From Kordiimonadaceae bacterium (GTDB taxonomy: Bacteria; Pseudomonadota; Alphaproteobacteria; Sphingomonadales; Emcibacteraceae): a stretch of 45,743 bases of DNA. Location: the NCBI GenBank assembly GCA_018660225.1, contig JABJKT010000070.1, positions 1 through 45,743 of the forward strand, in the 5' to 3' direction. Position 1 is the stretch's first letter; every line of letters starts with the position of its first letter. The notes below the pieces were generated by a model. That model ran no database searches. It was not told where the DNA came from and was given only the letters and a program-made list of their open reading frames with translations. This document shows, piece by piece, positions 11,695 through 32,620 of this stretch. The position numbers and the translations under genes were made by a program.

Positions 11695-13326
11695 ATGACT
11701 AAGACTGAAAATCCACGTCTTGAAGGCACACTAACTGCCGGAATGACAAAAAGATCTTTTTTACAATCTGTCGGCATGGTTGGCGGAACCGCTGCCGTAA
11801 TGACGGCCATGCAAGGCTGGAACATTGGCTTTGCCTCTGAAATGGACCGACCGCCGGCCCTTTCAACGGACGGTAAAGGTAAAAAGGTTATTATTCTTGG
11901 TGCTGGTCTATCCGGAATGGTGCTTGCTCATGAAATGAGCAAAAAAGGTTACAACTGTCAAATTATTGAAGCCATGCATTATGCTGGCGGACGCTGTGTA
12001 TCAGCACGTAAAGGATCTACCATTGAAGAAGTAAGCGGTGAAAAACAAACCTGTAACTTCGCCGACGGAAATTATATCAATTACGGTCCGTGGCGCATTC
12101 CTGCAGAACATAAATCAACAATTTATTATTGCCGCACCCTTGGTGTTCCCCTTGAAGTGATGATCAACAAATCAACTAAAGCCTATTACTATTATGAAAA
12201 CCAAGGCGGTCCCTTTAAAGGAAAGCCCGTCCGTCAGGGCGACGCCGATACCGATTTTAAAGGATATTCAACGGAACTTCTTGCCAAGGTTGCCGATCAG
12301 GGCGCCCTTGATCAAGCAATATCACAAGAAGACAAAGAAAAATTATTAGAACATTTAAAAGCGTCCGGACTTATTGACCGTAAAGAACTTAACTACCGCG
12401 CCAACCGAGCACGCGGGCACAAAGTATATCCGGGAGCCGCAACAAATTTTGGTGAACTTTCAGATCCATATACCATGGCTGATGTCTTTAGCATTAAAAA
12501 TGCAAGCCGCAATGAAACGGCTGATCATCCAGCCGTTATGTTCCAGGCCGTTGGCGGTATGGACCAAATTGCACAAGGTCTAAAAAGAGCATTAAGCGCG
12601 GATACAATCCGTTATAATTCAGAAGTAACCGATATCATTCAGGATGATAATGGTGTTGAAGTTACTTATAAAAATACAAAAACCGGTGCCGTTGACGTTG
12701 AAAAAGGCGACTATTTAATTTCAACAGCCCCCCTTGGTGTGATGGCAAATATCAACACCAACCTAAGCGAAGAATTTCAAGCAGCGTTAAAAGCAACCCG
12801 CAGCAGTCCCGCCTGTAAAATGGGCGTTGAAATGAGCCACCGTTTCTGGGAACAAGAAGAAATGATTTACGGTGGGTCTTCAAACACGGACATTACGGGC
12901 CAAAGACTTCTTAGCTATCCATCAGGCAACATGTTCGGCACGGCCCATGGTGATACGGGTGTAATTCTTGGTTATTACCCAACGGGCGCCTCATCGATAC
13001 CGGTTAGTAATATGAGCGTAGCAGAACGTATCGAATTTGCCCTTGCGGCCGGTGAGAAAGTTCACCCTGGCAAATATAGAAAGAACTTCAGCGGTGAAGC
13101 GATGTCTGTTGCTTGGCATAAAATGAAATATGCTCTTGCCGGTTGGGAAAACTGGTCAAGGCGTGGTCGTTCTCGTGCATTTCCTGTCATGCAAAAAGGT
13201 GATAACCGTATCTTTGTATCTGGTAATATCGCCTCTCCTGCTCTTGGTGGCTGGATGGCTGGTGCTATTGAAGGGGCGTGGTCAACAATGGAAGTGATTG
13301 ACAAGCGCGTCGCTGAACAGGCATAA
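11695..13326 (+). CDS. Exported flavin-dependent amine oxidase / dehydrogenase
   Basis: 543 residues of the FAD amine-oxidase superfamily (monoamine oxidase, L-amino acid oxidase, NicA2). Residues 1-48 look like a Tat export signal, but with Lys19-Arg20 (TKRSFLQS) in place of the usual Arg-Arg, followed by a small-residue hydrophobic stretch. The dinucleotide motif is GAGLSGMV (69-76) with AGGRC at 97-101. The C-terminal FAD segment is VSGNIASPALGGWMAGAIEGAW. The start has AAGGGA upstream. A cytochrome c and two exported RidA proteins follow, so I infer a periplasmic enzyme that oxidises an amine or amino acid to an imine and passes electrons to the cytochrome rather than to oxygen, as reported for NicA2 with CycN. 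The substrate is unknown. Confidence 0.88.
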   Translation: MTKTENPRLEGTLTAGMTKRSFLQSVGMVGGTAAVMTAMQGWNIGFASEMDRPPALSTDGKGKKVIILGAGLSGMVLAHEMSKKGYNCQIIEAMHYAGGRCVSARKGSTIEEVSGEKQTCNFADGNYINYGPWRIPAEHKSTIYYCRTLGVPLEVMINKSTKAYYYYENQGGPFKGKPVRQGDADTDFKGYSTELLAKVADQGALDQAISQEDKEKLLEHLKASGLIDRKELNYRANRARGHKVYPGAATNFGELSDPYTMADVFSIKNASRNETADHPAVMFQAVGGMDQIAQGLKRALSADTIRYNSEVTDIIQDDNGVEVTYKNTKTGAVDVEKGDYLISTAPLGVMANINTNLSEEFQAALKATRSSPACKMGVEMSHRFWEQEEMIYGGSSNTDITGQRLLSYPSGNMFGTAHGDTGVILGYYPTGASSIPVSNMSVAERIEFALAAGEKVHPGKYRKNFSGEAMSVAWHKMKYALAGWENWSRRGRSRAFPVMQKGDNRIFVSGNIASPALGGWMAGAIEGAWSTMEVIDKRVAEQA

Positions 13327-13429
13327 TTTTTAACGGCCTTATTGGCTTAACCTAAGGACATAATATCATCACAAATTTTTAAAATACTTAAAATGTGAGG
13401 ATAAATTAAAACAAAAAATGTGGGTAAAA

Positions 13430-13822
13430 ATGAAAAATTATTATAAATTACTATTAGCCCTTGTGGGAATTTTTTGCCTTTCTTCAAACGCTTATGCGCA
13501 AGAAACCGGCGAAGAAATATATACTGATTACTGCGAAGCCTGCCACCAGCCGGGCGGCGAAGGATTTGAAGATACTTATCCTGCACTAAAGGAAAATGTC
13601 TTCGTTCTTGGTGATACTGAAGAGCTAATATATCTAATGCTTGAAGGTCGCGGCGGGATGCCGACATTCATCGAAGATCTGGAAGTAGAGCAAATAACAA
13701 CGATCCTTAATTACATCCGCACCAGCTGGGGCAATGCGGGCGACGAAATTGATCCGGCGGTCGTAGAAGAAGCCTTTGACTTTATTGCCGAAGAAGATGA
13801 CGGTTTTGGACCCGGTAACTAA
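13430..13822 (+). CDS. Small periplasmic c-type cytochrome
   Basis: 130 residues from ATG 13430 (GTGGG just upstream); an ATG four codons earlier is possible. A cleavable signal peptide (cut after AYA, about residue 23) is followed by one haem site CEACH at 35-39 and the probable axial Met77 in GRGGMPTF. The mature protein is very acidic, mainly in the C-terminal third. It follows the flavoprotein gene by about 100 bases and precedes two ridA-like genes. The likely role is electron acceptor of the amine oxidase, passing electrons towards the respiratory chain (inference from gene order and the NicA2-CycN precedent). Confidence 0.88.
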   Translation: MKNYYKLLLALVGIFCLSSNAYAQETGEEIYTDYCEACHQPGGEGFEDTYPALKENVFVLGDTEELIYLMLEGRGGMPTFIEDLEVEQITTILNYIRTSWGNAGDEIDPAVVEEAFDFIAEEDDGFGPGN

Positions 13823-13892
13823 TTAGATAAAGCCCAATTAATTACCTGAAATCATTGCCAAATAAAAAGAATGCTATAAGTTAACAACGAAC

Positions 13893-13909
13893 GGTGCGCA
13901 CGCCGCACC
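13893..13909 (+). other. G+C-rich hairpin between the cytochrome and first ridA genes
   Basis: GGTGCG (13893-13898) pairs perfectly with CGCACC (13904-13909) across a 5-base loop. No T run follows, so it is not a standard terminator. It may protect or separate mRNA segments so that the operon's proteins are made in different amounts. Confidence 0.4.
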
Positions 13910-13937
13910 CAATGAAATAATTCCTAGGGAGAAAATT

Positions 13938-14456
13938 ATGTCAAACTTAACTAAAATTGCTGTTGCACTTCTTATAAGCTGTGTGGCATCACTAACCGCG
14001 AGTGCACAAATGATCGAAAGAACAAGTAAAGGCTTTCTTGATCCGGGAATTGTAATTCCTGCTGGAGCAGAAACCTATTATATGAGCGGTAAAGGAAATC
14101 ATGCTTGGGCCGAAGGCTGCAAGACACGTGATGAGCGTACTGCAAAAGGCGACCAGTGCAAACCGGGTGATATGTACGCACAAGGACAAGCTATTTTTGC
14201 GGCTTTCAAAACTCAACTTGAAGACGCTGGTTGGTCACTTAGCGATGTTGTAATGCTTCGCATTTTTGGCATACCTGGCGAAGATGGTAAAGTTGATACT
14301 GGTGGCTTCAATAAAGCCTATCAAGAATATTTCGGAGAAAATTCAACAAGTGGCAACACAAATCTACCGTCACGTACTTTCGTTGGCGCTCACACTTTAG
14401 TGGTGCCAGGATGGCTCGTGGAAGTAGAAGCGCGTGCCATTCGCATGCCTAAATAA
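13938..14456 (+). CDS. Exported RidA-family protein (copy A)
   Basis: 172 residues. A signal peptide (1-23, cut near ASA-Q) directs this RidA/YjgF/UK114 domain to the periplasm; most RidA proteins are cytoplasmic and about 130 residues. The imine-binding arginine is kept (Arg146 in PSRTFV), as is the acidic EVEARA strand (Glu162, Glu164). Compared with ordinary RidA it has an insert around 54-80 with Cys61 and Cys74, which could form a disulfide, and another around 112-121. RidA proteins hydrolyse enamines and imines to carbonyl plus ammonia. Here it would act on the product of the upstream flavoprotein (inference). It is 23 bases from copy B. Confidence 0.88.
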   Translation: MSNLTKIAVALLISCVASLTASAQMIERTSKGFLDPGIVIPAGAETYYMSGKGNHAWAEGCKTRDERTAKGDQCKPGDMYAQGQAIFAAFKTQLEDAGWSLSDVVMLRIFGIPGEDGKVDTGGFNKAYQEYFGENSTSGNTNLPSRTFVGAHTLVVPGWLVEVEARAIRMPK

Positions 14457-14479
14457 TAAATTCTAAGGAAGAAAATAAT

Positions 14480-14974
14480 ATGACTAAACTAATTAAAATC
14501 GCAATTGCTGCTTTCGTAGCAATGACAATAGCTGCTAACGCACAAAGTGTTATCAAACGCAACGACGAAGGTCGTATGTTCTATTCAACGATCGAAGTGC
14601 CAGCACATGCTGACCAGCTATTCGTTAGTGGTAAAGGACCAGGCGCCGTAAATCCTGACGCACCGCGTGCTGAGCGCACATACGGCAACACAGAAACACA
14701 AGCCCGCAGCACATTTAACAGCATCAAAGCCGCCGTTGAAAAAGCAGGTTGGAGCATGAGCGACGTTGTTATGGCGCGCGTCTATCTTGTTGCTGATCCA
14801 GCAATGGGTAGCATGGATTTTGGTGGTTTCAATAAAGCATTCCTAGAGTTCTTCGGTACAGAAGACCAACCAAACAAACCGGTTCGCGCCGTTGTTGAAG
14901 TTGCCGGCCTTGCCGTTGGTGGATGGCTAATCGAAGTTGACGTCCGCTTAGCAAGAATGCCTGCTGCTAACTAA
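14480..14974 (+). CDS. Exported RidA-family protein (copy B)
   Basis: 164 residues. It is a diverged tandem relative of the preceding gene, also with a signal peptide (1-21, cut near ANA-Q). The RidA arginine is present (Arg136 in PVRAVVEVAG). In the final strand the second acidic residue is Asp154 rather than Glu (IEVDVRL), a conservative change that could alter activity. It lacks the two-Cys insert of copy A. The pair may form homo- or hetero-trimers, since RidA is a trimer with active sites between subunits. TAAGGA precedes the ATG. A double hairpin ends the operon right after it. Confidence 0.88.
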   Translation: MTKLIKIAIAAFVAMTIAANAQSVIKRNDEGRMFYSTIEVPAHADQLFVSGKGPGAVNPDAPRAERTYGNTETQARSTFNSIKAAVEKAGWSMSDVVMARVYLVADPAMGSMDFGGFNKAFLEFFGTEDQPNKPVRAVVEVAGLAVGGWLIEVDVRLARMPAAN

Positions 14975-15049: not shown

Positions 15050-16315
15050 CTAATTATTCCACTGGAAAAATTCAACCGTATACCCACCCGGATCGCGGAT
15101 TAGGAAAGCTCTTATCGGCGCCGTCGTGCTATCGTAAATTTCATGTTCAATTTTAACATTTTTAGCGTTCTTAATAGCCGCGTACCATTTATCAACATCT
15201 TTTGAAACAATACTGACCATTACGGCGCTTTCTTTATTCGGGTGATGAAAGCCGCCTTCGCTATCCATAACCACACCGATAAAGGCTGTATCCGTTAGCT
15301 TATAAATCTTCACCCAATCATCATCAAATGTTGCCGTTAGTTGAAGGTCTTTTGCGTAAAACTCCGCTGCTCTGGCAAAATCTTCTTCGCTATAATAAAG
15401 CATAGTAATCTGCTCATCAATTTTCGGTAAATCCATGGTTCCGTAAACGCTCCTGTCTGTCTGGCCTTTATCCATCTGCACCGGCAATGCTGTACATTCA
15501 TTCTGGCTCACGCCGCTTGTATTAAAATCAAGAAACGAAGTCGCCGCATAGGTGGCGATTGTCGGCACATTGCCCACATAATTGGTGTCCATTACTGCAT
15601 GCTCAACGGAAATTTGAAAAACTTCGCCCGCTGATAAAAGATCACTAGAAATAGTTACATTCTGATCGGCGTAGGTTAAATGAGCCCCGCCGCCAAAAGG
15701 CACCCCGCTATGGGATATCTTCTCACCTTTACAATTCGCCATAACGGCGAATATCAAATCATCGACAAAACCGTTTTCATCCGGACCGCCTTCCAGAAAC
15801 GGCGTCCATGAAATTACGATATCCTGATCAGGATCAACGCTGGCCGCGGATACCTCACTGCCATTTTGACTGATGGTAATTATTGGTGAGGCGGGAATGC
15901 GGGTATTCCCATCATCCCGGTCCGACATAACGACCGGAATATGCAGCACAGTGCCGCCGGTTTCCGTATATTCGTACATATATTCCCCGTTGGGATAAAG
16001 CGCGTTTAAGTCTTCTTCATTGTTATAACGCCCGCCGTGGGTTTCTAAGGTCGATGGATGATCGTCAAAATTCATCCTATCAATTGCCGGATGGCTTAAG
16101 GTGCCGTTTGTCACAGCCCCGCCTTCTTTTACAAAAATTTCAGCAAAGAAATGATAATTGATCATCTGCTGCGCGCCCGAATTGTCTTGTCTGTAATTGG
16201 CGGTTTTTCCTACCACTAGAAACTGGGTATCCGTGCTATTCACTTCATTTTGAGCGCAGGCACTTAGCATTAAGGCTGGATAAATCATAAATGCGATCAG
16301 CCATTTTTTCAGCAT
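15050..16315 (-). CDS. Lipoprotein with an uncharacterised N-terminal region and a C-terminal VOC domain
   Basis: 421 residues from ATG 16315, which has GAGGGAAGAAG upstream; a longer frame starting 28 codons earlier is rejected. The signal ends in the lipobox LSAC (Cys20). Residues about 25-295 are beta-rich and not recognised. Residues about 305-421 form a glyoxalase/bleomycin-resistance (VOC) domain with MLYYSEEDFARAAEFYAKDL at its start and DPGGYTVEFFQW at its end. A VOC domain on an envelope lipoprotein is unusual. It is convergent with the amine oxidase operon and divergent from the MtnA-fusion cluster. The function is unknown; binding of a small ligand is the most one can say. Confidence 0.75.
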   Translation of the reverse strand: MLKKWLIAFMIYPALMLSACAQNEVNSTDTQFLVVGKTANYRQDNSGAQQMINYHFFAEIFVKEGGAVTNGTLSHPAIDRMNFDDHPSTLETHGGRYNNEEDLNALYPNGEYMYEYTETGGTVLHIPVVMSDRDDGNTRIPASPIITISQNGSEVSAASVDPDQDIVISWTPFLEGGPDENGFVDDLIFAVMANCKGEKISHSGVPFGGGAHLTYADQNVTISSDLLSAGEVFQISVEHAVMDTNYVGNVPTIATYAATSFLDFNTSGVSQNECTALPVQMDKGQTDRSVYGTMDLPKIDEQITMLYYSEEDFARAAEFYAKDLQLTATFDDDWVKIYKLTDTAFIGVVMDSEGGFHHPNKESAVMVSIVSKDVDKWYAAIKNAKNVKIEHEIYDSTTAPIRAFLIRDPGGYTVEFFQWNN

Positions 16316-16392
16316 TACTTCTTCCCTCATAATTGTTTTCACTTTATGGTCAGACCTTACCGTAATAATTAAGCAGAATAAAGAAATAACAG

Positions 16393-17808
16393 ATGACAAA
16401 AAATATTGAACGGCTGGTGGCAGAAGCCAATTCGCAAATCGAAACCATCAGTATTGATCAGGCAAAACTGGCGCTAGATGATCCGGGCACTACTTTCGTC
16501 GATCTGCGCGATATTCGCGAACTTCAGGCAAGCGGCACGATCCCCGGCGCTTACCATATGCCGCGCGGCATGATCGAATTTTGGGCCGATCCGAGCAGTC
16601 CTTATTTTAAAAAAATATTTGGCTCCGGCACTAAATTTATCTTTTACTGCTCAAAAGGATGGCGCAGCGCCCTTGCTACACAGTCAGCAATGACCGTCGG
16701 TGTTAAAAATATCTGTCATATTGACGGCGGCTTTACGGGCTGGGTTGATAGCGGCGGACCGGTCGCTGAAAAACCAGCCGGAAAATCGCCTGCGATTAAG
16801 GAAGGCATTTATGATCTTCTGCCCTTCGTCGTAAACCCCGATAACATAGCAAGATTTGAAGAAGGCAAAGTGCTAATCGGCGATAGGCGTAAATACCCTT
16901 TTTCAAAAGAATTTTTCGTCTGCGATACTGTTAGCGATGTGGCGCAAGCGATCAAGGATATGGTCACCCAAGGCAGCGGCCCGTGGATGGCAGCGGTAAA
17001 CGCGCTAAGGATGGTCTCAGGTCAAGGAACAGACGCGCTAAAAGCAGCCTGCGACGAGCTTGTAGCGACCCGCCCGACCAACACGGCCATGAGCCTAAGG
17101 CTTGATGACGTGATCAGCCAAGCGGCACTCGCCGAAGAGCAAGGCTCAGACATTGATCAGGCGATAGAAAACAGAATTGAAGCGATCAAAAACACCATTT
17201 ATGATAATTACGCTATCCGCTCCCGGGCCATGGCCGACTTGATTGAGGACGGCGACGGGGTGCTGACCATGTGTTTCGGTGAAGCGGGGTTTCTTCTCTC
17301 CCTCGCCCTCGCCGCGCGCGACGGTAAAAAAATCACCGCCTACGCCCCTGAAACAAGGCCTTACCTGCAGGGCGCAAAACTAACCGCACCGTCCATTCAT
17401 GAACTTGGCATAGACGTTAATCTGATCACTGATAATATGCCGGCCCATATTATGTCGGAAGGCAATATTCAAAAATATATCACCGCCGCCGACCTGATCA
17501 CCGTTGACGGTCATGTCTGTAATAAAATTGGCACTTACCAAAACGCCATTACCGCCCACGCCCATGACATCCCCTATTTCGCTTTTGCCTGGGGCCGCGA
17601 CGATCAAAAACAAAGCCGCGCTGATATTGAAATTGAAGAACGCGACCCGGCCGAAATAAGACAAGCACTCGGTCAGCCAACCACCATAGACGCCGTAGGC
17701 GCGCGCTACCCTACGTTTGATATCACCCCGCCCAAATATGTCGCTGGCGTGGTTACGGTTCACGGCGTCGTTAGCCCATACACCCTAAAAAATTATAAAA
17801 ACTGGTAG
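16393..17808 (+). CDS. Rhodanese domain fused to an MtnA-like S-methyl-5-thioribose-1-phosphate isomerase
   Basis: 471 residues in two domains. Residues about 15-128 are a rhodanese with an intact active loop CSKGWR (Cys86 to Arg91). Residues about 138-471 belong to the MtnA / eIF2B-related isomerases. Kept there are the catalytic Cys294 (TMCFGEAG) and Asp367 (AADLI), ETRPYLQG at 320-327, DNMPAH at 348-353, NKIGTY at 378-383 and the C-terminal ERDPAEI. The usual substrate-loop RGAPAIG is QGSGPWM (193-199), and HCN is MCF, so the substrate may differ from MTR-1-P. It would turn an aldose 1-phosphate into a ketose 1-phosphate for the aldolase two genes on. The rhodanese hints at sulfur or persulfide handling (inference). 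Confidence 0.87.
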   Translation: MTKNIERLVAEANSQIETISIDQAKLALDDPGTTFVDLRDIRELQASGTIPGAYHMPRGMIEFWADPSSPYFKKIFGSGTKFIFYCSKGWRSALATQSAMTVGVKNICHIDGGFTGWVDSGGPVAEKPAGKSPAIKEGIYDLLPFVVNPDNIARFEEGKVLIGDRRKYPFSKEFFVCDTVSDVAQAIKDMVTQGSGPWMAAVNALRMVSGQGTDALKAACDELVATRPTNTAMSLRLDDVISQAALAEEQGSDIDQAIENRIEAIKNTIYDNYAIRSRAMADLIEDGDGVLTMCFGEAGFLLSLALAARDGKKITAYAPETRPYLQGAKLTAPSIHELGIDVNLITDNMPAHIMSEGNIQKYITAADLITVDGHVCNKIGTYQNAITAHAHDIPYFAFAWGRDDQKQSRADIEIEERDPAEIRQALGQPTTIDAVGARYPTFDITPPKYVAGVVTVHGVVSPYTLKNYKNW

Positions 17809-17816
17809 GAGAAAAA

Positions 17817-18569
17817 ATGACTGTAGCAATTTTAGGCGGCACCGGCATTTATAACCTGCCAAGAATAGACGTATCTGAAAAAAAAGTCAGCAATGAATAC
17901 GGCGATGCGGTTATATATGAGGGCCAAGGCGATTATTCAGACGTCATCTTCATGACCCGCCACGGCGCAGATCACAGCACCCCGCCCCATAAAGTCAACT
18001 ACCGCGCCAACATGAAAGCGCTAAAGGACCACGGGGTTAAAAGGATCATGGCCACCTACGCCGTGGGATCGATCACCACTAAATATCAGGTACTCGATAT
18101 TGCCGTGCTTCGCGATTTTCTTGATTTTACATCAGGTAGAGAGTTCAGCTTTTTTGATAGCATCGAACGCGGTATCGGCCATGTAGAAATGAGCGTGCCG
18201 TACTGCCCGGTGATGAGCGCAAAGATACTCGAGCTGGCAGGGAGCCATAATTTAAAGGCCCATGACGGCGCGACCTATGTAGCGACCAACGGGCCACGTT
18301 TTGAAAGTCCGGCCGAAATAAAATTTTATCAAAAAATGGGCGGTGATGTGGTTGGTATGACGGGCTGCCCGGAAGTTTATCTGGCTGGTGAGCTTGGCAT
18401 GGTGATGGCGGCGGTTGCGCTGCCGATTAACCTTGCCGCAGGGCTCGAGGAAAAAATAACCATTCATGAAGGTAATATTGATCAGGTGCGCGAAAACATG
18501 GTCCGCTTAATGCTTGGCGTGCTAAAAAACACCAGTGATGCCGACTGTCATCCCCCAAAGCTATTATAG
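17817..18569 (+). CDS. MTA/MTI phosphorylase family protein (MtnP-like)
   Basis: 250 residues, normal for the family. Seen: phosphate-binding GGTGIY at 7-12, RHG at 48-50 with PPHKVNYRAN, TNGPRFESPAEI near 157-168 and the sugar-site MTG at 181-183. It cleaves a 5'-modified purine nucleoside with phosphate to base and sugar 1-phosphate. At the base-recognition position it has Asn205 (PINLAAGL), not the Asp of adenine-specific MTA phosphorylases; Asn usually goes with 6-oxopurines, so methylthioinosine may be preferred (family rule plus inference). It is eight bases after the fusion gene with AGGAG upstream and supplies that enzyme's substrate. Confidence 0.92.
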   Translation: MTVAILGGTGIYNLPRIDVSEKKVSNEYGDAVIYEGQGDYSDVIFMTRHGADHSTPPHKVNYRANMKALKDHGVKRIMATYAVGSITTKYQVLDIAVLRDFLDFTSGREFSFFDSIERGIGHVEMSVPYCPVMSAKILELAGSHNLKAHDGATYVATNGPRFESPAEIKFYQKMGGDVVGMTGCPEVYLAGELGMVMAAVALPINLAAGLEEKITIHEGNIDQVRENMVRLMLGVLKNTSDADCHPPKLL

Positions 18570-18577
18570 AGAACGCT

Positions 18578-19399
18578 ATGAACGATAATTTTGCAGAAAT
18601 TTACCCGCTTGATGAATTTGCCGAAGTGTGCGAATGGCTCGCTTTTAAAGGATGGTCAGAAGCCGAAGGCGGTAATCTTTCACTACGTCTTGAACAGGAT
18701 CAGGTCCCAGACCCGTTAAAAGAAAGCGACACCGAGCCGGTAAAATTACCGCTTAACGTTAAAGAGCTGGCCGGAAAATACCTGCTGATTACCGGATCAG
18801 GCACCCGTTCGCGTGATATCGCTACCGAGCCGCAAAATGATATCGGGCTTTACCGTATTTCTGATGATGGCGCATCTTATCAGTGGATTTTCGGAAATGA
18901 TAAACCGACCAGCGAAATGCCGTCCCACTGCTTGGTCCAGAATGAATTTGTAAAATCCCGCCCTGATTATAAAGCAATTATCCATACCCATCCCACGAAG
19001 CTTATTTCGCTCACCCATGTGGCGGAATTTAAAGACCCGAAAGTCCTAAGTGATTGCATTCTTGGCCTTCAGAGTGAAGCACGTATTCAGCTTCCCGAAG
19101 GAATTGGCCATCTGCCGTTCTGCGTTCCGGGAAGTTTAGAGCTCGGGCTGTTATCAGCCGAAGAAATAAAGCACCGCAACGTGATCCTGTGGAATATGCA
19201 CGGCGCGCTTAGTGTGGGAACATCACTCAATCATGCGCTTGATCAATTGGAAGTGGTTGAAAAAGCGGCAGAAATTTATTGGACCCTGAGATCCGCCGGT
19301 CTGCCCACGGGCGGAATGGAACAGGAAGACCTATTAAAATCAATGGATTTTTTCGGACGCGTAGATCGTTACGAAAAAGCCTTCAAGGATAAGAAATAA
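18578..19399 (+). CDS. Class II aldolase, RhaD-like
   Basis: 273 residues, close to the 274 of E. coli rhamnulose-1-phosphate aldolase, which it resembles more than the shorter FucA type. Seen: phosphate-binding GGNLSLRL at 31-38 and TGSGTRSRD at 72-80, catalytic Glu113 in TSEMPSH, zinc ligands His136, His138 (IHTHPT) and His208 (NMHGAL), and LPFCVPGS at 179-186. It should split a ketose 1-phosphate into DHAP and an aldehyde. After MtnP and MtnA, that would be methylthioribulose-1-phosphate to DHAP plus methylthioacetaldehyde, or 5-deoxyribulose-1-phosphate to DHAP plus acetaldehyde. MtnB dehydratase is an alternative of the same superfamily but fits less well. Its stop overlaps the next start. 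Confidence 0.88.
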   Translation: MNDNFAEIYPLDEFAEVCEWLAFKGWSEAEGGNLSLRLEQDQVPDPLKESDTEPVKLPLNVKELAGKYLLITGSGTRSRDIATEPQNDIGLYRISDDGASYQWIFGNDKPTSEMPSHCLVQNEFVKSRPDYKAIIHTHPTKLISLTHVAEFKDPKVLSDCILGLQSEARIQLPEGIGHLPFCVPGSLELGLLSAEEIKHRNVILWNMHGALSVGTSLNHALDQLEVVEKAAEIYWTLRSAGLPTGGMEQEDLLKSMDFFGRVDRYEKAFKDKK

Positions 19400-20679
19400 T
19401 GAGCAAAAAAACTAAAAGCAGAGTTAAACCAGAGCATGGCATGAGCACCGTGGTTAATCATGTCGGCGAAGGAAGCCATGACAAGCATGCCCATCTGATG
19501 CCGATTTACCAGACGTCTACCTTCAGTTTTGACAGCGTCGATGAAGGGGCGGATATTTTCGCTGGCCGCAAAAAAGGCTATGCCTATACCCGGACCCATA
19601 ATCCCAATCATGATCATCTGGCCGGAAAAATCGCCTATATGGAAGGCATCGATTTGATCAGACAAAACCCGGACAAGGAACCTGCCGAGCTCGTCGCCTG
19701 TAAAGTCACCTCATCAGGCATGGGCGCAACAGCGGCGGCGGTGTTAGCAAAAATTGGCGCTGGCGATAAAGCGATTGTCCAAATGGGGCTTTACGGTAAT
19801 ACGTTTAAATTTTTCAACCTTTTGGCGCCAAGGCTTGGCATCGAAGTTGTGTGGGTCGCCGACACAGATAGCGCGAGCTTTGAGCGGGTCATTAATGATA
19901 ATCCGGATGCTAAACTGGTTTACTGCGAAACGCCGTCAAACCCGAAGCTTGAAGTGATTGACTTGGTGAGCTTAGCTAAAGCCGCTCATAAACACGAAAT
20001 GTGGGTGATGGTCGATAACACTTTCGCCACCCCCTACCATCAACGCCCGCTTACCCTTGGCTGTGATGTGGTGGTCCACAGCACGACCAAATATATTTCC
20101 GGTCACGGTCAAGTCATCGGCGGCGCGATCGTCAGCACCCATCTTGATTATATGGCACCGGGCGGCTCAGGCGTTGGCCTTACCTATAAAATGCTCGGCG
20201 TCGCCCCAAGCCCCAAAGACACATGGCTGATTGCCGCCGGCCTTAAAACTTTTGAGCTACGCATGCAGCGCCACGCCAAAAATGCACAACTCATCGCCAA
20301 TTGGCTCGCCGGTCACGAAAAAGTAGCCGCCGTTTATTACCCGGGTTTAGAAGACAACCCCTATCACGATCTGGCGAGGGCGCAGATGATAAACGGCTAC
20401 GGCGGCATGCTGAGCTTTGAGCTAATAGACGGCAAGCGCGGCGGCGCCGAAAACGGCAAAGCCTTCGCTAATGCGGTGACTATTCCGACATTGGCGGTGA
20501 GTTTAGGCAACGTAGACAGCTTGATCCAGCATCCAGCTAGTATGACGCACAGTGCGACTACACCGGAAGCGCGGGAGCAGGCGGGGATAACGGATAGTAT
20601 AATTCGGTTGAGTGTTGGGATTGAGAATATTGAGGATTTGATTGGGGATCTGGAGGAGGCTATGGGGAGTGTTGGGTGA
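19399..20679 (+). CDS. Cys/Met metabolism PLP-dependent enzyme (methionine gamma-lyase / homoserine sulfhydrylase group)
   Basis: 426 residues. Family features: YAYTR at 61-65, SSGMGA at 105-110, VDNTFATP at 205-212, the PLP lysine Lys231 in HSTTKYISGH, and C-terminal HPASMTHS. Members either lyse methionine to methanethiol or add sulfide/methanethiol to activated homoserine. The residue equal to the special Cys of methionine gamma-lyase seems to be Asn134 (LYGNTF), which tilts towards a sulfhydrylase or synthase, but the reaction is not settled. It overlaps the aldolase gene by one base, so it is translationally coupled. An insert around 85-100 lengthens it. The last 35 or so codons switch to GAG, GGG and TTG, unlike the rest, and it ends in TGA. 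Confidence 0.9.
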   Translation: MSKKTKSRVKPEHGMSTVVNHVGEGSHDKHAHLMPIYQTSTFSFDSVDEGADIFAGRKKGYAYTRTHNPNHDHLAGKIAYMEGIDLIRQNPDKEPAELVACKVTSSGMGATAAAVLAKIGAGDKAIVQMGLYGNTFKFFNLLAPRLGIEVVWVADTDSASFERVINDNPDAKLVYCETPSNPKLEVIDLVSLAKAAHKHEMWVMVDNTFATPYHQRPLTLGCDVVVHSTTKYISGHGQVIGGAIVSTHLDYMAPGGSGVGLTYKMLGVAPSPKDTWLIAAGLKTFELRMQRHAKNAQLIANWLAGHEKVAAVYYPGLEDNPYHDLARAQMINGYGGMLSFELIDGKRGGAENGKAFANAVTIPTLAVSLGNVDSLIQHPASMTHSATTPEAREQAGITDSIIRLSVGIENIEDLIGDLEEAMGSVG

Positions 20680-21533: not shown

Positions 21534-21677
21534 TAATTATTCTCTCGAAAATAAACTTATAGTACCACTATATAATATTAATTATGAATAACAGGTTATC
21601 AAAATTGATTTATCCGCTCGTAAAATGTCGCTAAATAATGTAAAAAGTTTTTTTAGTTTATTGTTTTGGAGATTTTT

Positions 21678-22163
21678 ATGAAAAAGATTTTGTTTGTCGT
21701 TTTAAGTTTTTTTGTTTTTGGCTCACCTTTAGCTTATGCCGATAGCACTTATTATGTTGTGCGCCATGCGGAGAAACTGGACGGGGATAATCCGGTACTT
21801 ACGGCCAAAGGGGTTAGACGCGCGGCGCATATTGTGACCATGCTTGAAGGCGTTCCTATCAATGCGGTTTATTCCACCGAAACCTACCGCACCGTCATGA
21901 CCGCAACGCCGACGGCGGCCGACCGCGGGCTTGAAGTGAAGCTTTTTAGCACCGAAGATCTTGACGCCTTTTCAAATGAGCTTAAAGCGATGGACGGGAC
22001 ATTTCTAATTGTCGCCCATAGTTCAAGCACACCGGATCTGGCTTCGCTGCTAAGCGGAGTGAGCATCCCCAAGCTTGAAGAAACGGATTATGAGAAGCTT
22101 TTTAAAGTTGTGATTACGGGCGGCGAAGCTAAGCTTACCAAGATGGTTACGACGTTTGAATAA
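21678..22163 (+). CDS. Periplasmic histidine phosphatase family protein (SixA-like)
   Basis: 161 residues from ATG 21678 with TTGGAG just upstream; a TTG four codons earlier lies inside that site. A signal peptide (1-21, cut after YADS-type AYA-D) is followed by the phosphohistidine motif RHAEK at 29-33, Arg71 in STETYRTV and the second His114 in VAHSSSTPD. The domain is short, like SixA, and lacks the long insert of true phosphoglycerate mutases. It would remove phosphate from a small or protein-bound periplasmic phosphoester; the substrate is unknown. The gene ends just before a 25-bp perfect inverted repeat that can end its transcript. Confidence 0.87.
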   Translation: MKKILFVVLSFFVFGSPLAYADSTYYVVRHAEKLDGDNPVLTAKGVRRAAHIVTMLEGVPINAVYSTETYRTVMTATPTAADRGLEVKLFSTEDLDAFSNELKAMDGTFLIVAHSSSTPDLASLLSGVSIPKLEETDYEKLFKVVITGGEAKLTKMVTTFE

Positions 22164-22551: not shown

Positions 22552-23124
22552 TTAGTTACTTTCACATTCTTTTCTTAAGCCGACCAACATTTCAGCGTCA
22601 GGTTTTTTGGCTATTATTTCTTCATCGGTCAGGCCGTCAAGCTCATGGGGGAAAACCAGCCAGTCTTCGGTTTTATGGACAAAGTAATTGGGAATTCTAT
22701 CGGTGAGGTTTTTGCTTGGTTTATAATAAACCGTACCAACCCGCACATCAATCGGCATGTTTTTGCGCATATGAACTTCAAGTTCGTGAATAATCGCGCG
22801 GATGCTGCGCCCGCTATCAAACACATCGTCCAAAATAAGCAGATTATCGCTCGAATTCATATTATCGATCAGATAATGAAGGCCGTAAACCTTAACATGG
22901 GCTTCCTGTTCGGCGATACCGGTATAGCTTGAAGTGCGAATGGCGATATGGTCCGTTTTGATATGGCAGTAATCCAGCAGTTCCTGCACTGCAATGCCAA
23001 CCGGGGTGCCGCCGCGCCACACACCAACGATAAAATCTGGCCGAAAGCCGTCTTTTATAATGATCTGGCCCAGCTGCAGTGATAAGGAGAGCAGTTCATC
23101 AGCGGTAATATAGGTTTTATTCAT
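22552..23124 (-). CDS. Purine-type phosphoribosyltransferase
   Basis: 190 residues from ATG 23124; an upstream extension of 22 codons is hydrophobic and basic and is likely noncoding. The PRPP-binding loop LLILDDVFDSGRS is at 95-107, and GVWRGGTPVG at 34-43 is typical of xanthine/hypoxanthine-type enzymes. It would join a free purine base with PRPP to make the nucleotide. Whether it prefers xanthine, hypoxanthine or guanine cannot be told. With the exported adenosine-deaminase-like protein and the 6-oxopurine-type MtnP nearby, purine base recovery may be a local theme (inference). It is divergent from the ABC importer genes. Confidence 0.87.
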   Translation of the reverse strand: MNKTYITADELLSLSLQLGQIIIKDGFRPDFIVGVWRGGTPVGIAVQELLDYCHIKTDHIAIRTSSYTGIAEQEAHVKVYGLHYLIDNMNSSDNLLILDDVFDSGRSIRAIIHELEVHMRKNMPIDVRVGTVYYKPSKNLTDRIPNYFVHKTEDWLVFPHELDGLTDEEIIAKKPDAEMLVGLRKECESN

Positions 23125-23252
23125 AATTTTTTTCGTCCATTTCAAATTCCACTTTAATATAACCGCTGCGAATGTAAAAAGGAATTTCAATTTAGTGTAA
23201 GCTTGCTACAATGATAAAAAACGCTGGAAAGCGTCTCTGGAGAATTATTGGC

Positions 23253-24563
23253 ATGATCAAGGCGGCAATGATATTTGTAATTGTGGTGCTAGGCTACGCG
23301 CTGAGCCAGGCCATGTCTGATAAAGATCATGACCCGAATAACCTGCTGATCGTTGAAGTGAACACCTCACCAGAGCGCACAAAGCTTCTACGCGGGCAGC
23401 TCGACAGTTTTGAAGCCGCAAACCCCGGTATGACGGTTGACGTGATCTCGCTATCCTGGGGGCAGGCCTTTGAAAAAATCGCCATGATGGTCGCGGGTGG
23501 CAAAGCACCGGACGTTGTGGAAATGCCGGACTTCTGGCTTTCGCGTTATGTAAGTGCCGGGCAAATCGCCGATATGACGCCTTATATAAACGAGGATGAT
23601 TTTGATGATGATCTGGAAGCGGATACTTTTGATTATGGCAGCATCAATGAAACGCTTTATACCATTCCATATGGCTATTACCTGCGCGCGCTGATTTATA
23701 ACAAAAAGCTTTTTGCCGAGGCCGGCATTGAAAAACCGCCGCTTACGCTGGATGATTTTTACAATACCGCGGCAAAATTATCAGAACTCCCCGGCGTATC
23801 AGGATTTTGTCATCACGGCGGGCGCGGCGGGCCGGTATTTTTTTACTGGATCATGACCACCATGAACGGCAACGTTGATTTTTTTGACGAAGCTGGCAAC
23901 AGCACCTTTTATAATCAGGGCGCCATTGACGGCCTTACTTTAATCCGCGATATTTATAAAAACGGTTACGCACCAAAAGACAGCGTCAATTGGGGCCTTA
24001 ATGAAACGGTATCGGGCTTTTATTCCGGCACCTGCGCCATGCTTCATCTAACGCCGGATAGCCTAGCCGCGCTAAATACACGCATGGACCCGGATGATTT
24101 TGCCTCAACGCCAATGCCGCTTGGGCCATCGGGGAAATCATTTCCGCATCTGGGTTATATTGGCTGGTCGGTGATGGAGCAATCTACCAAAAAAGCCGCC
24201 GCCTTTAAACTGGTCGAACATCTGCTTGAACGTGAAAATCATAAGCAGTGGGCCGAACTTTCCGGACTTGTACCGATTTATAAAGAAATATTAGAAGATA
24301 TTTTTGACGAAGACGGTATCGGCGCAGGCTGGCTTAAAACCACGCAGGATGATCGCTGGTCTTATATGATTAACCCAAATTACCTACCGGAAATCGCCGA
24401 ATTTGACAGCATCACCGTCGTTCAATCCGGTCAAGCAATGATGCTCGGCGAAAAAACACCAGAAGAAACCGCAAAAATGTGGGCCGATTTCCTAACCGCC
24501 GCGCAGAAAAAATATATCGCCGAAAATGAAAATCCCGAGAACGAAAGTAAAGCCAATGAATAA
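23253..24563 (+). CDS. ABC importer solute-binding protein (family 1, sugar type)
   Basis: About 436 residues from ATG 23253 (GGAG at 23239-23242); ATG 23211 gives 14 more residues but has no ribosome site. The N-terminus has a hydrophobic signal or anchor (AAMIFVIVVLGYAL) with no lipobox. The rest is a family 1 binding protein as in maltose or trehalose uptake: SPERTKLLRGQLDSFEAANP near the start, GGKAPDVVEMPDFW, YTIPYGYYLRALIYN, and aromatic-rich C-terminal half. The ligand is likely an oligosaccharide or polyol but is not determined. Two permease genes follow directly. Confidence 0.88.
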   Translation: MIKAAMIFVIVVLGYALSQAMSDKDHDPNNLLIVEVNTSPERTKLLRGQLDSFEAANPGMTVDVISLSWGQAFEKIAMMVAGGKAPDVVEMPDFWLSRYVSAGQIADMTPYINEDDFDDDLEADTFDYGSINETLYTIPYGYYLRALIYNKKLFAEAGIEKPPLTLDDFYNTAAKLSELPGVSGFCHHGGRGGPVFFYWIMTTMNGNVDFFDEAGNSTFYNQGAIDGLTLIRDIYKNGYAPKDSVNWGLNETVSGFYSGTCAMLHLTPDSLAALNTRMDPDDFASTPMPLGPSGKSFPHLGYIGWSVMEQSTKKAAAFKLVEHLLERENHKQWAELSGLVPIYKEILEDIFDEDGIGAGWLKTTQDDRWSYMINPNYLPEIAEFDSITVVQSGQAMMLGEKTPEETAKMWADFLTAAQKKYIAENENPENESKANE

Positions 24564-25422
24564 AGCATGGTTTTATCTCGCGCCGACGCTGCTGTTTATT
24601 TTCCTGCTGGTGCTAGTGCCGCTCGTGACCGGAATTTCATACGCCTTTTATGATTTTGATTTAATCTCGGGCACCAAAGAATTTGTCGGCTTTGACCAGT
24701 TCAAAAGAATTCTCAGTGAAGACGAAATTTTCACCATGAGCCTCGTCAACACGCTGTTCTGGACTAGTTCATCACTATTTTTCCAGTTCACGTTCGGCTT
24801 TGCGCTCGCGCTAATCCTCAACAGCGGCTTTAAGGGCATAAAGTTCATTCAGCCGCTGCTCTTCGTGCCGTGGGCGGTGCCGAGCTTTCTTATTGGCCTG
24901 ATGTGGGTGTGGATGTTTAACCCTGTGACCGGTCCGCTTCCTTATATTTTTGAAGCCATCGGCCTCATGGACGCCCCTGAAAATATTTTAAGCGACCCTG
25001 ACCATGCCATGTGGGGGCCAATAACGGCCAATGTATGGTACGGCATCCCGTTTTTCACCATCATGCTGCTCGCCGCATTAAAATCAATCCCCGGTGAAAT
25101 ATATGAAGCAGCGAGCATTGACGGCGTCACCCGCTTTCAGGCTTTTCGTTATATAACCGTGCCGCTCATCGCGCCGACCATCATCATCACTCTGCTGATA
25201 CGCGCGATCTGGATTTCAAATTTTGCCGAAATTATTATCGTCATGACCGGAGGCGGCCCAGCAAACTCAACCCAGATCGTCTCCACCTATATTTATGATA
25301 CCGCCTACCAGAAAATGGATTTTGGCTACGCGTCGGTGTTATCAATCGCCCTTCTTTTCATGTTGATGCTTTACGGCCTGACCCTTGGCCGCATCAGACG
25401 GAAGATGATCAGCTATGTTTAG
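24556..25422 (+). CDS. ABC sugar importer permease, MalF-like
   Basis: About 288 residues from ATG 24556, which overlaps the end of the binding-protein gene by eight bases; an ATG at 24526 would add ten basic residues. Six membrane segments are predicted, starting with WFYLAPTLLFIFLLVLVPLV. The EAA loop that contacts the ATPase is EIYEAASIDGVTRFQAFRYI near 180-200. It forms a heterodimer with the next gene's product in the inner membrane. No ATPase gene is found in the window, so an ATPase encoded elsewhere (MsiK-style sharing) must drive it. Confidence 0.91.
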   Translation: MNKAWFYLAPTLLFIFLLVLVPLVTGISYAFYDFDLISGTKEFVGFDQFKRILSEDEIFTMSLVNTLFWTSSSLFFQFTFGFALALILNSGFKGIKFIQPLLFVPWAVPSFLIGLMWVWMFNPVTGPLPYIFEAIGLMDAPENILSDPDHAMWGPITANVWYGIPFFTIMLLAALKSIPGEIYEAASIDGVTRFQAFRYITVPLIAPTIIITLLIRAIWISNFAEIIIVMTGGGPANSTQIVSTYIYDTAYQKMDFGYASVLSIALLFMLMLYGLTLGRIRRKMISYV

Positions 25423-25431
25423 GGGCCCCCA

Positions 25432-26244
25432 ATGAAAATAACCAAAAACGCATTTCTTGCAGGCTTTCTGATCTTCACGCTGTTCCCGGTTTTCTGGATG
25501 CTGAAAATATCCCTTACCCCGGACCGCCTTCTTTTTACCGAAGGCATCGTCATGTGGCCAAGCCGCATCACCTTTGATCATTATTACGCGGTACTGCTCG
25601 AGGGAAGCTTCCCCGATTATTTCATCAATAGCTTCATCGTTTCCTTCACCACCGCCGCCATGGTAACGATCATCGCCGCACTGGCTGGTTATGCGCTTTC
25701 GCGTTTTGATTTTAAGGGCAAAACCATCATCATCACTCTATTACTGATTACGCAGATGTTCCCAATCGTCATGGTCATCGCCCCTATTTATAATGTGCTC
25801 ACCTTTATAAATCTGGTGGATAGCTTGGCAGGATTGATACTGGTCTATACCGCCTTTAACCTGCCCTTTGCCTGCTTTTTAATGCAGACCTTTTTTGACG
25901 GCATCCCAATAGAGTTAGAAGAAGCCGCCATGATCGACGGCTGCACCCGGCTTCAAGCACTCGAAAAAGTAACCTTGCCGCTCTGCCTTCCCGGTATCGG
26001 CGCAACGCTAGGTTTCGTCTTCACCGCCGCATGGTCAGAACTGCTTTTCGCGCTAATGTTCATAAATCGCCAGTCCCAAATGACTTTCCCCGCCGGCATA
26101 ATGAATTTCGTCACAAAATTTTCGGTTGATTGGGGCCAAATGGCGGCGGCAATGATCCTGGCGTTGATCCCGGTATGCTTGTTCTTCGCTTATATCCAAA
26201 GGTTTATTGTGCAGGGACTAACGGCGGGTTCGCTTAAGGGCTAA
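25432..26244 (+). CDS. ABC sugar importer permease, MalG-like
   Basis: 270 residues with six predicted membrane segments. The EAA loop is LEEAAMIDGCTRLQALEKVT near 160-180. It starts nine bases after the first permease; the spacer GGGGCCCCCA supplies a modest ribosome site. It pairs with the MalF-like subunit. The end of the gene overlaps the stop of the convergent deaminase-like gene in the tetranucleotide CTAA, so no terminator fits between them. Confidence 0.91.
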   Translation: MKITKNAFLAGFLIFTLFPVFWMLKISLTPDRLLFTEGIVMWPSRITFDHYYAVLLEGSFPDYFINSFIVSFTTAAMVTIIAALAGYALSRFDFKGKTIIITLLLITQMFPIVMVIAPIYNVLTFINLVDSLAGLILVYTAFNLPFACFLMQTFFDGIPIELEEAAMIDGCTRLQALEKVTLPLCLPGIGATLGFVFTAAWSELLFALMFINRQSQMTFPAGIMNFVTKFSVDWGQMAAAMILALIPVCLFFAYIQRFIVQGLTAGSLKG

Positions 26245-30800: not shown

Positions 30801-31055
30801 TTCTTTGTTGGATAAATCAAACTCCTGCAGGAAATAATCCATCGTGCCCTGGCTGTCACTTTTATCGCGTGACTTATCGACATAGTGGCGCGCCGCACCA
30901 ACAAGGCGGTTTCGCTCACCAATTGTAAGCTCGGTAGCCAGAAGGAGGTTCTCAACGCATGTCTCCTCGTCACCGTGCAGCATTAGACGCAAATCATGCC
31001 TGATAGAGCCAAGAGATAAACTTTCAATTTTTTTCAGATCATTTAAAATATACAT
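27876..31055 (-). CDS. putA: Bifunctional proline dehydrogenase / P5C dehydrogenase PutA
   Basis: 1059 residues from ATG 31055, with GGTGA six bases upstream (an ATG four codons earlier has no ribosome site). It oxidises proline to glutamate in two steps. The N-terminal FAD proline dehydrogenase barrel includes RLVKGAYWDSEIKHAQ. The C-terminal aldehyde dehydrogenase has LFISPWNFPLA-type CISPWNFP, AETGGQN and the catalytic Cys848 in GQRCSAL. There is no ribbon-helix-helix DNA-binding domain at the N-terminus, so it does not regulate itself as E. coli PutA does; the Lrp-family gene 2 kb away is the likely regulator. It faces the same way as sdaA, 131 bases downstream of it. Confidence 0.96.
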   Translation of the reverse strand: MYILNDLKKIESLSLGSIRHDLRLMLHGDEETCVENLLLATELTIGERNRLVGAARHYVDKSRDKSDSQGTMDYFLQEFDLSNKEGVALMCLAESLLRVPDGATADRLISEKISAGRWSEHKGHSESSFVNASTWGLMLTGEFVELGDEVKGNTDNWFKNFIKKTGEPVVRTAIMQAMRIMGGQYVLGRTIDEAIKRGTKENTPDTRFSFDMLGEGARTMDDADRYFEAYKAAIMQIGAQNDKNDPYSANGISVKFSALHPRYEMSHHQTVMDQMVPRITALAALAKQKGLGFTIDAEEADRLDISLDIFEVLARSKQLQNWDGLGIVVQAYQKRAPYVIDWLKQLGRETSRKFMVRLVKGAYWDSEIKHAQEMGLSDYPVYTRKQSTDLSYQVCAERLMTARDQFYPQFATHNAYSVALILELVRKWDVKADEFEFQRLHGMGHLLYDMVKQNADTDFNIRVYAPVGAHKDLLPYLVRRLLENGANSSFVNRFMDKDVAVEDLMQDTVKLVEQKSPKRHSMIPLPKDIISYSAREAFPRKNATGFELSDPLEIEKLKGSLREKIEYQAGPIVCGKMSFETAEKVLSPTTGDVVGMVGNTTPADIETALTAASKSQKNWNMLGGAARAAILNDAADLMEARCVEFMALIAEEAGRTLADGLSEVREAVDFLRYYAGQAVEDFEGGKLLPGPTGERNELFLQGRGTFLCISPWNFPLAIFVGQVSAALAAGNAVIAKPAEQTPIVAAQAVKILHEAGVPVDALHLLTGDGVTIGAALVADERIGGIAFTGSTDTAKIINRSLANREGAIVPLIAETGGQNVMIVDSTALPEQVVDDAISSAFQSAGQRCSALRVLYVQDDVADVIIPMLKGAMDCLSMGDPADLSTDVGPVIDKQARELLVKHATKMDKQATLIHALDAPADYNGTFFGPRLYEISSLDELKKEVFGPILHVIRYKASKLDDILAQIQNTGFGLTLGVHSRIEDSAEYIFKNLDVGNTYVNRNIVGAVVGVQPFGGQGLSGTGPKAGGPRYLYRFATEKTLTINTVATGGNTELFAMEEE

Positions 31056-31186
31056 GTAAATCACCATAAGTTAGAATTTTTTAATATGGTGAATATAAGT
31101 GAAATGGCAGTAGAATGTCCTACTATATTAAAGAAATTGCCGATATATTATCTAAAAAAATGCTAGTTTGGTAGTTTTTTATGCTG

Positions 31187-32560: not shown

Positions 32561-32620
32561 GTCCCCACCCTTAATCAATTATTTTAGGGAGTTGTTTATA
32601 GAAAAGATATTAGAAGCACT

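Follow-up and report, generated by a model that had tools for sequence, protein, structure and literature searches.

The closest described relatives of the system considered here are the dihydroxyacetone phosphate (DHAP) shunt of Rhodospirillum rubrum, Rhodopseudomonas palustris and Escherichia coli, which runs through MtnP or Pfs/MtnK, MtnA and Ald2, and the drdK-drdI-drdA cluster for 5-deoxyribose disposal of Bacillus thuringiensis. We have analysed a 45,743-nucleotide contig of a Kordiimonadaceae bacterium (JABJKT010000070.1, positions 1 to 45,743; the whole stretch is hereafter called the window), in which a single open reading frame (ORF) of 471 aa encodes both a rhodanese, its CSKGWR loop intact, and an isomerase of the MtnA/IF-2B family, and is followed by genes for a phosphorylase, a class II aldolase and a pyridoxal phosphate (PLP) enzyme. 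This arrangement, first noticed in an initial annotation of the same DNA, is confirmed. Like the DHAP shunt, the cluster combines a phosphorylase (or kinase), an MtnA-family isomerase and a class II aldolase, with DHAP and an aldehyde as the expected products. It differs in that its isomerase belongs to another clade (the E. coli enzyme, with which it was compared, is canonical), that its phosphorylase looks to be of the inosine type, with a deaminase and a phosphoribosyltransferase (PRTase) nearby, that a distinct PLP subfamily is added, and that some loci carry the rhodanese fusion and the window a RhaD-type aldolase. With drdK-drdI-drdA it shares the order of reactions and a paralogous isomerase whose gene adjoins that of a class II aldolase, but B. 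thuringiensis uses a kinase where the window has a phosphorylase; phosphorylase-type clusters for 5-deoxyribose disposal are also reported in the part of that paper available to us, where the word rhodanese does not occur (PMC6079011). Part of a further paper (PMC6302742) was also drawn on. The features of the fusion and of the genes that follow it are:

16393..17808, forward strand: fusion of a rhodanese and a divergent MtnA/IF-2B-family isomerase, 471 aa (domain searches, alignment, AlphaFold2 model, fold match)
16453..16749, forward strand: single-domain rhodanese, N-terminal in the fusion, residues 21-119
16648..16665, forward strand: CSKGWR active-site loop of the rhodanese, Cys86-Arg91 (fusion alignment)
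16852..17796, forward strand: isomerase domain, residues 154-468 (PRK05720 stretch 154-468, under its cut-off; IF-2B 213-462)
16969..16983, forward strand: QGSGP motif, residues 193-197, the clade signature that replaces canonical RGAP (alignment)
17272..17274, forward strand: Cys294, aligned with the catalytic Cys of M1Pi (alignment to 2yrf/1t9k)
17491..17493, forward strand: Asp367, aligned with the catalytic Asp of M1Pi (alignment)
17817..18569, forward strand: MtnP2, a MTAP/MTIP-family phosphorylase with putative inosine-type (Asn) base recognition
18578..19399, forward strand: class II aldolase, RhaD-type
19399..20679, forward strand: Cys/Met-family PLP enzyme of its own subfamily (LYGN, 14-18-residue insert, no KD pair)

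We consider it reasonably likely (a probability of roughly 60%) that this module is a version of the DHAP shunt that starts with a deaminase, serving the catabolism of imported 5'-modified purine nucleosides. A deaminase at the cell surface or in the periplasm would turn a 5'-modified adenosine into its inosine form, which the importer would carry into the cell, where phosphorolysis by MtnP2 would yield a 5-substituted ribose 1-phosphate and hypoxanthine, and the neighbouring PRTase could salvage the latter. The isomerase domain of the fusion would convert the sugar phosphate to its ribulose 1-phosphate form, and the class II aldolase (RhaD-type in the window, FucA-type elsewhere) would split this into the predicted products, DHAP and a two-carbon aldehyde carrying the former 5'-group. 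That group would often bear sulfur, with which the PLP enzyme and the optional rhodanese may deal. We infer each of these reactions from the genes, their conservation, the motif differences and the replacement of one aldolase by another. A DHAP shunt needs a phosphorylase or kinase, an isomerase of the MtnA family and a class II aldolase; nine genomes of the genus, including the window's, have this gene set, and the evidence for it is incomplete in some gammaproteobacteria and Chloroflexi. Of the pathway proposed in the initial annotation, the nucleoside-to-DHAP route of the MtnP/MtnA/aldolase kind is thus supported, but the names MtnA and MtnP and the return of methylthiol by the PLP enzyme are not.

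The fusion is present in 12 of the 13 genomes of the genus, and synteny within the genus together with the equivalent module in other phyla rules out a chance arrangement or an assembly error. Scanning 84,980 species genomes with two peptides derived from the fusion, A[YF]HMPRGM and MVTQG[SA]GP, gave 38 loci: 10 of the genus, three fused loci of Robiginitomaculum-type alphaproteobacteria, 17 without a detectable rhodanese (Gammaproteobacteria, Acidimicrobiia, Chloroflexi and others) and eight with a rhodanese alone (L and G numbers below denote loci and genomes). Because both peptides came from fusions, the scan favours close relatives and builds in QG[SA]GP. In 26 of 30 loci (10 of the genus and 20 others; L080, which repeats L038, and the truncated L042 and L043 are not counted) the genes for phosphorylase and isomerase are no more than about 2.2 kb apart, and two of the four loci without such a phosphorylase (L083, L084) start at a contig end. 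Fusions occurring widely without the partner genes had been named at the outset as an observation that would speak against a pathway; instead, the phosphorylase is found within this distance in all 13 fused loci with downstream flank. The PLP enzyme is near the isomerase in 19 of the 30 loci (the PLP gene of L072 is broken by an assembly gap). In a sample of the phylum, the isomerase was found at E <= 1e-45 in one of 398 genomes, the window's own. In the three Robiginitomaculum-type loci a protein of about 1,190-1,210 aa is encoded upstream of the rhodanese-isomerase (L073:4349-7918, also L074 and L077), and that of L073, the sole one scanned, is a hydantoinase A/B, oxoprolinase-like protein.

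The isomerase, for which we use the label MtnA2, belongs to the MtnA/IF-2B aldose-ketose isomerase superfamily by its fold and by its putative catalytic Cys and Asp, both invariant in the alignment (Cys294 in alignment A1); that Cys294 and Asp367 are catalytic we assume from B. subtilis MtnA (M1Pi). The name MtnA that it had been given does not fit, however. Against the MtnA equivalog model TIGR00512 it scores 182.2 bits, below the cut-off of 279; all eight clade members scanned fail likewise (173-208 bits), whereas the three canonical controls pass. Against this, broader models of methylthioribose 1-phosphate isomerases are passed by some clade members, PRK05720 by L109, L112 and L113 and the TIGR00524 cut-off by L071, L087, L109 and L112, the window isomerase passing neither. 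In place of RGAP and HCNAG-type motifs, which we take to be MtnA hallmarks, the fusion has QG[SA]GP and CF[GA]E, and a canonical MtnA with both RGAP and HCNAG is also encoded in the window's genome. On the isomerase tree (without L080, L090 and L042) the fusion sits in a separate clade with support 100/100; the tree that includes the E. coli shunt MtnA also leaves out L091, L114 and L088, as rows that are long or cut. E. coli EC958 is named as a strain carrying the DHAP shunt in the available part of PMC10986504, and WP_000788354, an ORF upstream of its shunt operon, is also named for ATCC 25922 in the accessible part of PMC12632272. We located the EC958 operon by position (a DNA search for the E. 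coli shunt isomerase using the Enterococcus cluster gave no match), and its MtnA groups with the canonical enzymes, so that no characterised isomerase appears as yet to be placed in the divergent clade. The label 'DrdI clade', or DrdI/DHAP-shunt clade, was accordingly withdrawn, with the E. coli shunt MtnA on the canonical side and the B. thuringiensis DrdI unplaced.

The deep clade is shared with uncharacterised MtnK-isomerase-FucA clusters of Acetoanaerobium, Enterococcus raffinosus, Fusobacterium and Lactobacillus (L109, L110, L112, L113). These carry the clade signature (MVTQxxGP, C[FY][GA]E and AADxxxxDG[HY]xxNK[IV]GT) but follow a kinase route, their isomerases are 35-41% identical to that of the window, and no phosphorylase, PLP enzyme or rhodanese was seen in the stretches read. 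A Polaromonas plasmid (L114:2681-6813) has, beside an ABC importer, a gene annotated as methylthioinosine phosphorylase together with an ORF for a FucA-like aldolase, a short ORF for an isomerase and a gene for a LysR regulator; this is perhaps another version of the route.

Nine genomes of the genus each have exactly one of two unrelated types of aldolase. Four (G000, G001, G007, G012) have the RhaD-type inside the cluster, and five (G002, G006, G008, G009, G010) have a FucA-type enzyme unlinked to the cluster and no RhaD-type, the presence or absence of the latter resting on a Pfam search that finds it where it is present. The class II aldolase is therefore replaceable. The FucA-type proteins of the genus are 76-86% identical to the aldolase encoded directly upstream of the isomerase in gammaproteobacterial L071, L072 and L090, and because of this both kinds probably serve one pathway; this identity is a stronger argument than the statistics of the split. 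The replacement offers comparative evidence that aldol cleavage is the outcome of the pathway. Four other genomes of the genus have neither type: G011 is 53% complete, in G003 and G005 the cluster is cut by contig ends, and G004 is without the fusion; other, longer Aldolase_II proteins also occur in some genomes of the genus. The FucA gene of G009 lies in an island (L142:4847-10396) with genes for a 2-hydroxyacid dehydrogenase, an aldo/keto reductase, an FGGY kinase and a Na+/H+-antiporter-family protein; of these families, the dehydrogenase and the kinase recur in the cluster of E. raffinosus and the antiporter in that of Fusobacterium.

The name MtnP given to the phosphorylase gives way to an apparent inosine-type enzyme. 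Its base-recognition residue is Asn in 27 of 27 rows (26 distinct genomes), the two canonical MtnP copies read (G000, G012) have TDYD, and we take Asn versus Asp at this position to mean 6-oxo versus 6-amino purines. The methylthioinosine phosphorylase model NF006599 (cut-off 223) is passed by L082 (228.0) and L087 (237.1), L071 falling below it (208.7), and MtnP2 matches structure 3ozb, presumably PA3004. A methylthioinosine phosphorylase route operates in Pseudomonas aeruginosa and Methanocaldococcus, where deamination is followed by phosphorolysis of the inosine form; the module described here shares this deamination-first order, but has other downstream genes and a deaminase of the PF00962 family. 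Downstream of the PLP gene, the window encodes:

21666..22163, forward strand: histidine-phosphatase-family protein with a leader, kept near the cluster in several loci of the genus
22552..23190, reverse strand: phosphoribosyltransferase-like protein whose nearest solved relatives are purine PRTases (PF00156; PDB E about 1e-10)
23211..24563, forward strand: solute-binding protein of an ABC importer (SBP_bac_1)
24526..25422, forward strand: permease of the ABC importer (PF00528)
25432..26244, forward strand: putative second ABC permease, assigned by position and synteny and kept in L034 and L037
26241..27770, reverse strand: adenosine-deaminase-family protein with a lipoprotein-like leader (FSLVSCS), likely periplasmic (PF00962, 90.8 bits)

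In the window, 8.5 kb separate the fusion from the deaminase-family gene downstream of it. Eight of the 12 fusion-bearing genomes of the genus have this gene on the same contig as the fusion, no more than 16 kb away; it is on another contig in G003, G006 and G007 and was not found in G005. Further such genes are near the cluster in L073, L077 and L082 and adjoin the isomerase in Chloroflexi L085, L087 and L088. The PRTase has no NCBIfam match at 1e-10, and relatives of it stand beside the cluster in L072 (57%) and L082 (53%). Transport genes vary: the window has an ABC importer, L082 and three Chloroflexi loci have MalK-like genes, and a gene for an amino-acid (APC) permease stands next to the cluster at all three Robiginitomaculum-type loci and at seven of the nine labelled gammaproteobacterial (not at L082; L075 ends too soon). 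Deaminase and PRTase genes near an inosine-type phosphorylase fit a succession of deamination, phosphorolysis and purine salvage. Classical methionine salvage is unlikely, since no acireductone dioxygenase scores over the cut-off in any of the 13 genomes of the genus (weak matches below it in nine). The deaminase family, the inosine-type phosphorylase, the PRTase and the sugar-type ABC importer would also suit the degradation of ordinary nucleosides, from adenosine or inosine through ribose 1-phosphate and ribulose 1-phosphate to DHAP and glycolaldehyde, and so would the loss of the canonical RGAP arginine from the isomerase and the match of the FucA-type aldolases, below its cut-off, to a haloarchaeal ribulose-1-phosphate aldolase model. 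MtnP2, however, scores higher against models for 5'-deoxynucleosides (MTAP/MTIP) than against those of purine nucleoside phosphorylases, and ordinary nucleosides would leave the PLP enzyme and the rhodanese without a role; we regard this alternative as rather improbable.

The PLP enzyme is related to gamma-lyases but does not appear to be the methionine gamma-lyase of the genus. Its best match is to methionine gamma-lyase, at 391.2 bits, under the TIGR01328 cut-off of 549.7, and the motifs of that enzyme are absent from all 22 orthologues, which have LYGN for LYGC, a replaced KD pair and an insert of 14-18 residues; the Cys of LYGC and the KD pair are, we assume, its hallmarks. A separate paralogue of the methionine gamma-lyase type (LYGC, KDMTG) occurs in four of four genomes of the genus searched, which makes it unlikely that the cluster enzyme is the cell's methionine gamma-lyase. 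Possibly its pocket has changed for another homocysteine thioether. Four Chloroflexi genomes have an isomerase locus without an adjacent PLP gene; three of them have an orthologue elsewhere (53-54%), and none was found in G461 (L086). An AlphaFold2 model of the enzyme, built from 12 sequences, was poor (pLDDT 61.7) and was left unused.

In the scheme of the initial annotation, the cluster would be a shunt for the salvage of methylthioadenosine sulfur, in which the PLP enzyme would re-fix methanethiol as methionine and the rhodanese would handle sulfide. The phosphorylase, isomerase and aldolase do match the DHAP-methanethiol shunt of R. palustris as given in the available part of PMC5893883. 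Moreover, O-acylhomoserine sulfhydrylases belong to the same PLP family and come next after the methionine gamma-lyase models among its matches. Yet a canonical MtnA and MtnP are already present in the genome, and the cluster enzyme retains the VSLG stretch of the methionine gamma-lyase-type paralogues, which we take to indicate a gamma-lyase rather than a sulfhydrylase. The absence of the rhodanese from most loci would also go unexplained, and we found nothing in support of a return of methylthiol to methionine by the PLP enzyme, which is distinct from the methionine gamma-lyase-type paralogue of the genus. We give this scheme little credence.

The module may, alternatively, degrade S-adenosylhomocysteine (SAH) or its deaminated form. 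SAH would become S-inosylhomocysteine, the PLP gamma-lyase would cut off the amino-acid portion of four carbons, and the remaining 5-thio sugar would pass through phosphorylase, isomerase and aldolase, the rhodanese taking sulfur from mercaptoacetaldehyde much as mercaptopyruvate sulfurtransferase does from its own substrate. This would supply the rhodanese with a substrate, and it is favoured by a PLP enzyme that is nearest to methionine gamma-lyase yet lacks its hallmarks while the genus retains a paralogue of that enzyme's own type, by the orthologues retained elsewhere in Chloroflexi and by the APC permease beside the cluster. Plain methionine uptake, however, would equally explain the permease, the Robiginitomaculum-type loci carry the rhodanese yet no close PLP enzyme, and the 5' pockets of MTAP-family enzymes are usually small; degradation of SAH here seems to us quite unlikely. 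More doubtful still is an undescribed SAH route from the ribose side, in which deamination, gamma-lyase action, phosphorolysis and the new-clade isomerase would lead to a split into DHAP and mercaptoacetaldehyde, the fused rhodanese desulfurising the product to a protein persulfide and the sulfur being fed back. If this were true, the fusion would be a carbon-sulfur hand-over enzyme.

The N-terminal domain of the fusion has both the fold and the CxxGxR loop of a single-domain rhodanese and, by these, is a predicted sulfurtransferase. Cys86 and Arg91 are invariant in 10 aligned fusions, and the loop reads CxxG[WQ]R in all 14 fused proteins examined. The structure solved for RPA3614 of R. palustris (2hhg) is that of a stand-alone rhodanese, some 139 residues long, whereas the domain is here fused to an isomerase. 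In the literature searched, which lacks most subscription papers, we found nothing that describes a rhodanese-isomerase fusion, and no paper that joins a rhodanese with MtnA or methylthioribose. The fused proteins do not form one clade on the isomerase tree, where well-supported branches force at least two changes, yet a single origin is not rejected on the rhodanese tree (approximately unbiased test, p 0.12); the fusion therefore arose twice or the rhodanese was lost in between. No rhodanese was detected in 17 other loci of the isomerase clade (in L084 the start of the gene is cut by the contig), and so the sulfurtransferase is not part of the core module; judging from these loci it is optional, and most relatives do without it. 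Thus, in the sulfur-coupled route that had been suggested for the window, the fusion of a rhodanese to the isomerase stands, but not a sulfurtransferase as a core part, and sulfur handling is the weakest part of the functional reading. The same 17 loci would suit a rhodanese that is a mere passenger, its fusion fixed by drift or operon compaction and without a part in the pathway. The retention of the active-site loop in the 14 fused proteins argues otherwise, and so may the changes forced on the isomerase tree, which make chance fusion less likely if they are two gains, although they may be one gain and one loss. We think a passenger unlikely rather than far-fetched.

Several observations weigh against a deaminase-first DHAP shunt. 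The isomerase is not an orthologue of the E. coli shunt enzyme, the EC958 MtnA lying on the canonical side of the tree, and we found no measured activity for any member of its clade. The window phosphorylase scores 207.6 bits against the NF006599 cut-off of 223, and the window deaminase is a distant member of its family, reaching 93 bits with TIGR01430 where 216.55 is the cut-off; it is also remote from characterised enzymes, so that its sequence does not reveal its substrate. No match to the PLP enzyme in the three Robiginitomaculum-type genomes exceeds 44% identity, so that these genomes lack a close orthologue. The alternation of aldolases represents only two independent contrasts on the genus tree, and for that reason we put no weight on the chance of 1 in 126 that nine genomes would split cleanly at random. 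An aldolase is not evident at every locus: for L076, L078 and L081 the genome offers only a FucA of 43-46% elsewhere, for L085 and L087 (33-35%) and L079 (27%) a distant one, and for L075, L086 and L088 no FucA-type match. A RhaD search of 21 genomes, including those without a clear aldolase, also gave no match, an empty answer that alone shows nothing. Finally, the QG[SA]GP motif of the clade is in part a product of the scan, whose peptides contained it; motif evidence independent of the scan comes from tblastn matches in plasmid records, which read MVTQSAGP, and from the Robiginitomaculum-type loci, which read MVTQGVGP.

Around the cluster, the window encodes consecutively, at 11695-14974, a FAD amine oxidase, a cytochrome c and two leader-bearing RidA-family paralogues, a group largely kept beside the fusion in loci of the genus; RidA proteins with an export leader adjoining an amine oxidase are, to our knowledge, unusual. 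Divergent from the fusion and conserved in position (15050-16399, reverse strand) is a gene for a probable lipoprotein with a C-terminal glyoxalase domain. In Chloroflexi L154 a separate glyoxalase-family gene (Pfam) adjoins the PLP orthologue, and a similar 120-aa ORF is found there in L156. Genes for a PutA-like proline dehydrogenase/aldehyde dehydrogenase and an L-serine dehydratase follow the deaminase (27876-32578, reverse strand), which suggests an amino-acid catabolic neighbourhood.

The module brings together a separate isomerase clade, an apparent inosine-type phosphorylase, interchangeable aldolases and a distinct PLP subfamily, and the database names expected here, MtnA and methionine gamma-lyase, may mislead. 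It is conserved and apparently uncharacterised in alpha- and gammaproteobacteria, Acidimicrobiia and Chloroflexi, uncultured groups included. In R. palustris, according to the available part of PMC5893883, the enzymes that act after 2-(methylthio)ethanol and release sulfur past the aldehyde of the DHAP shunt are unknown, and for this gap the module offers concrete candidates.

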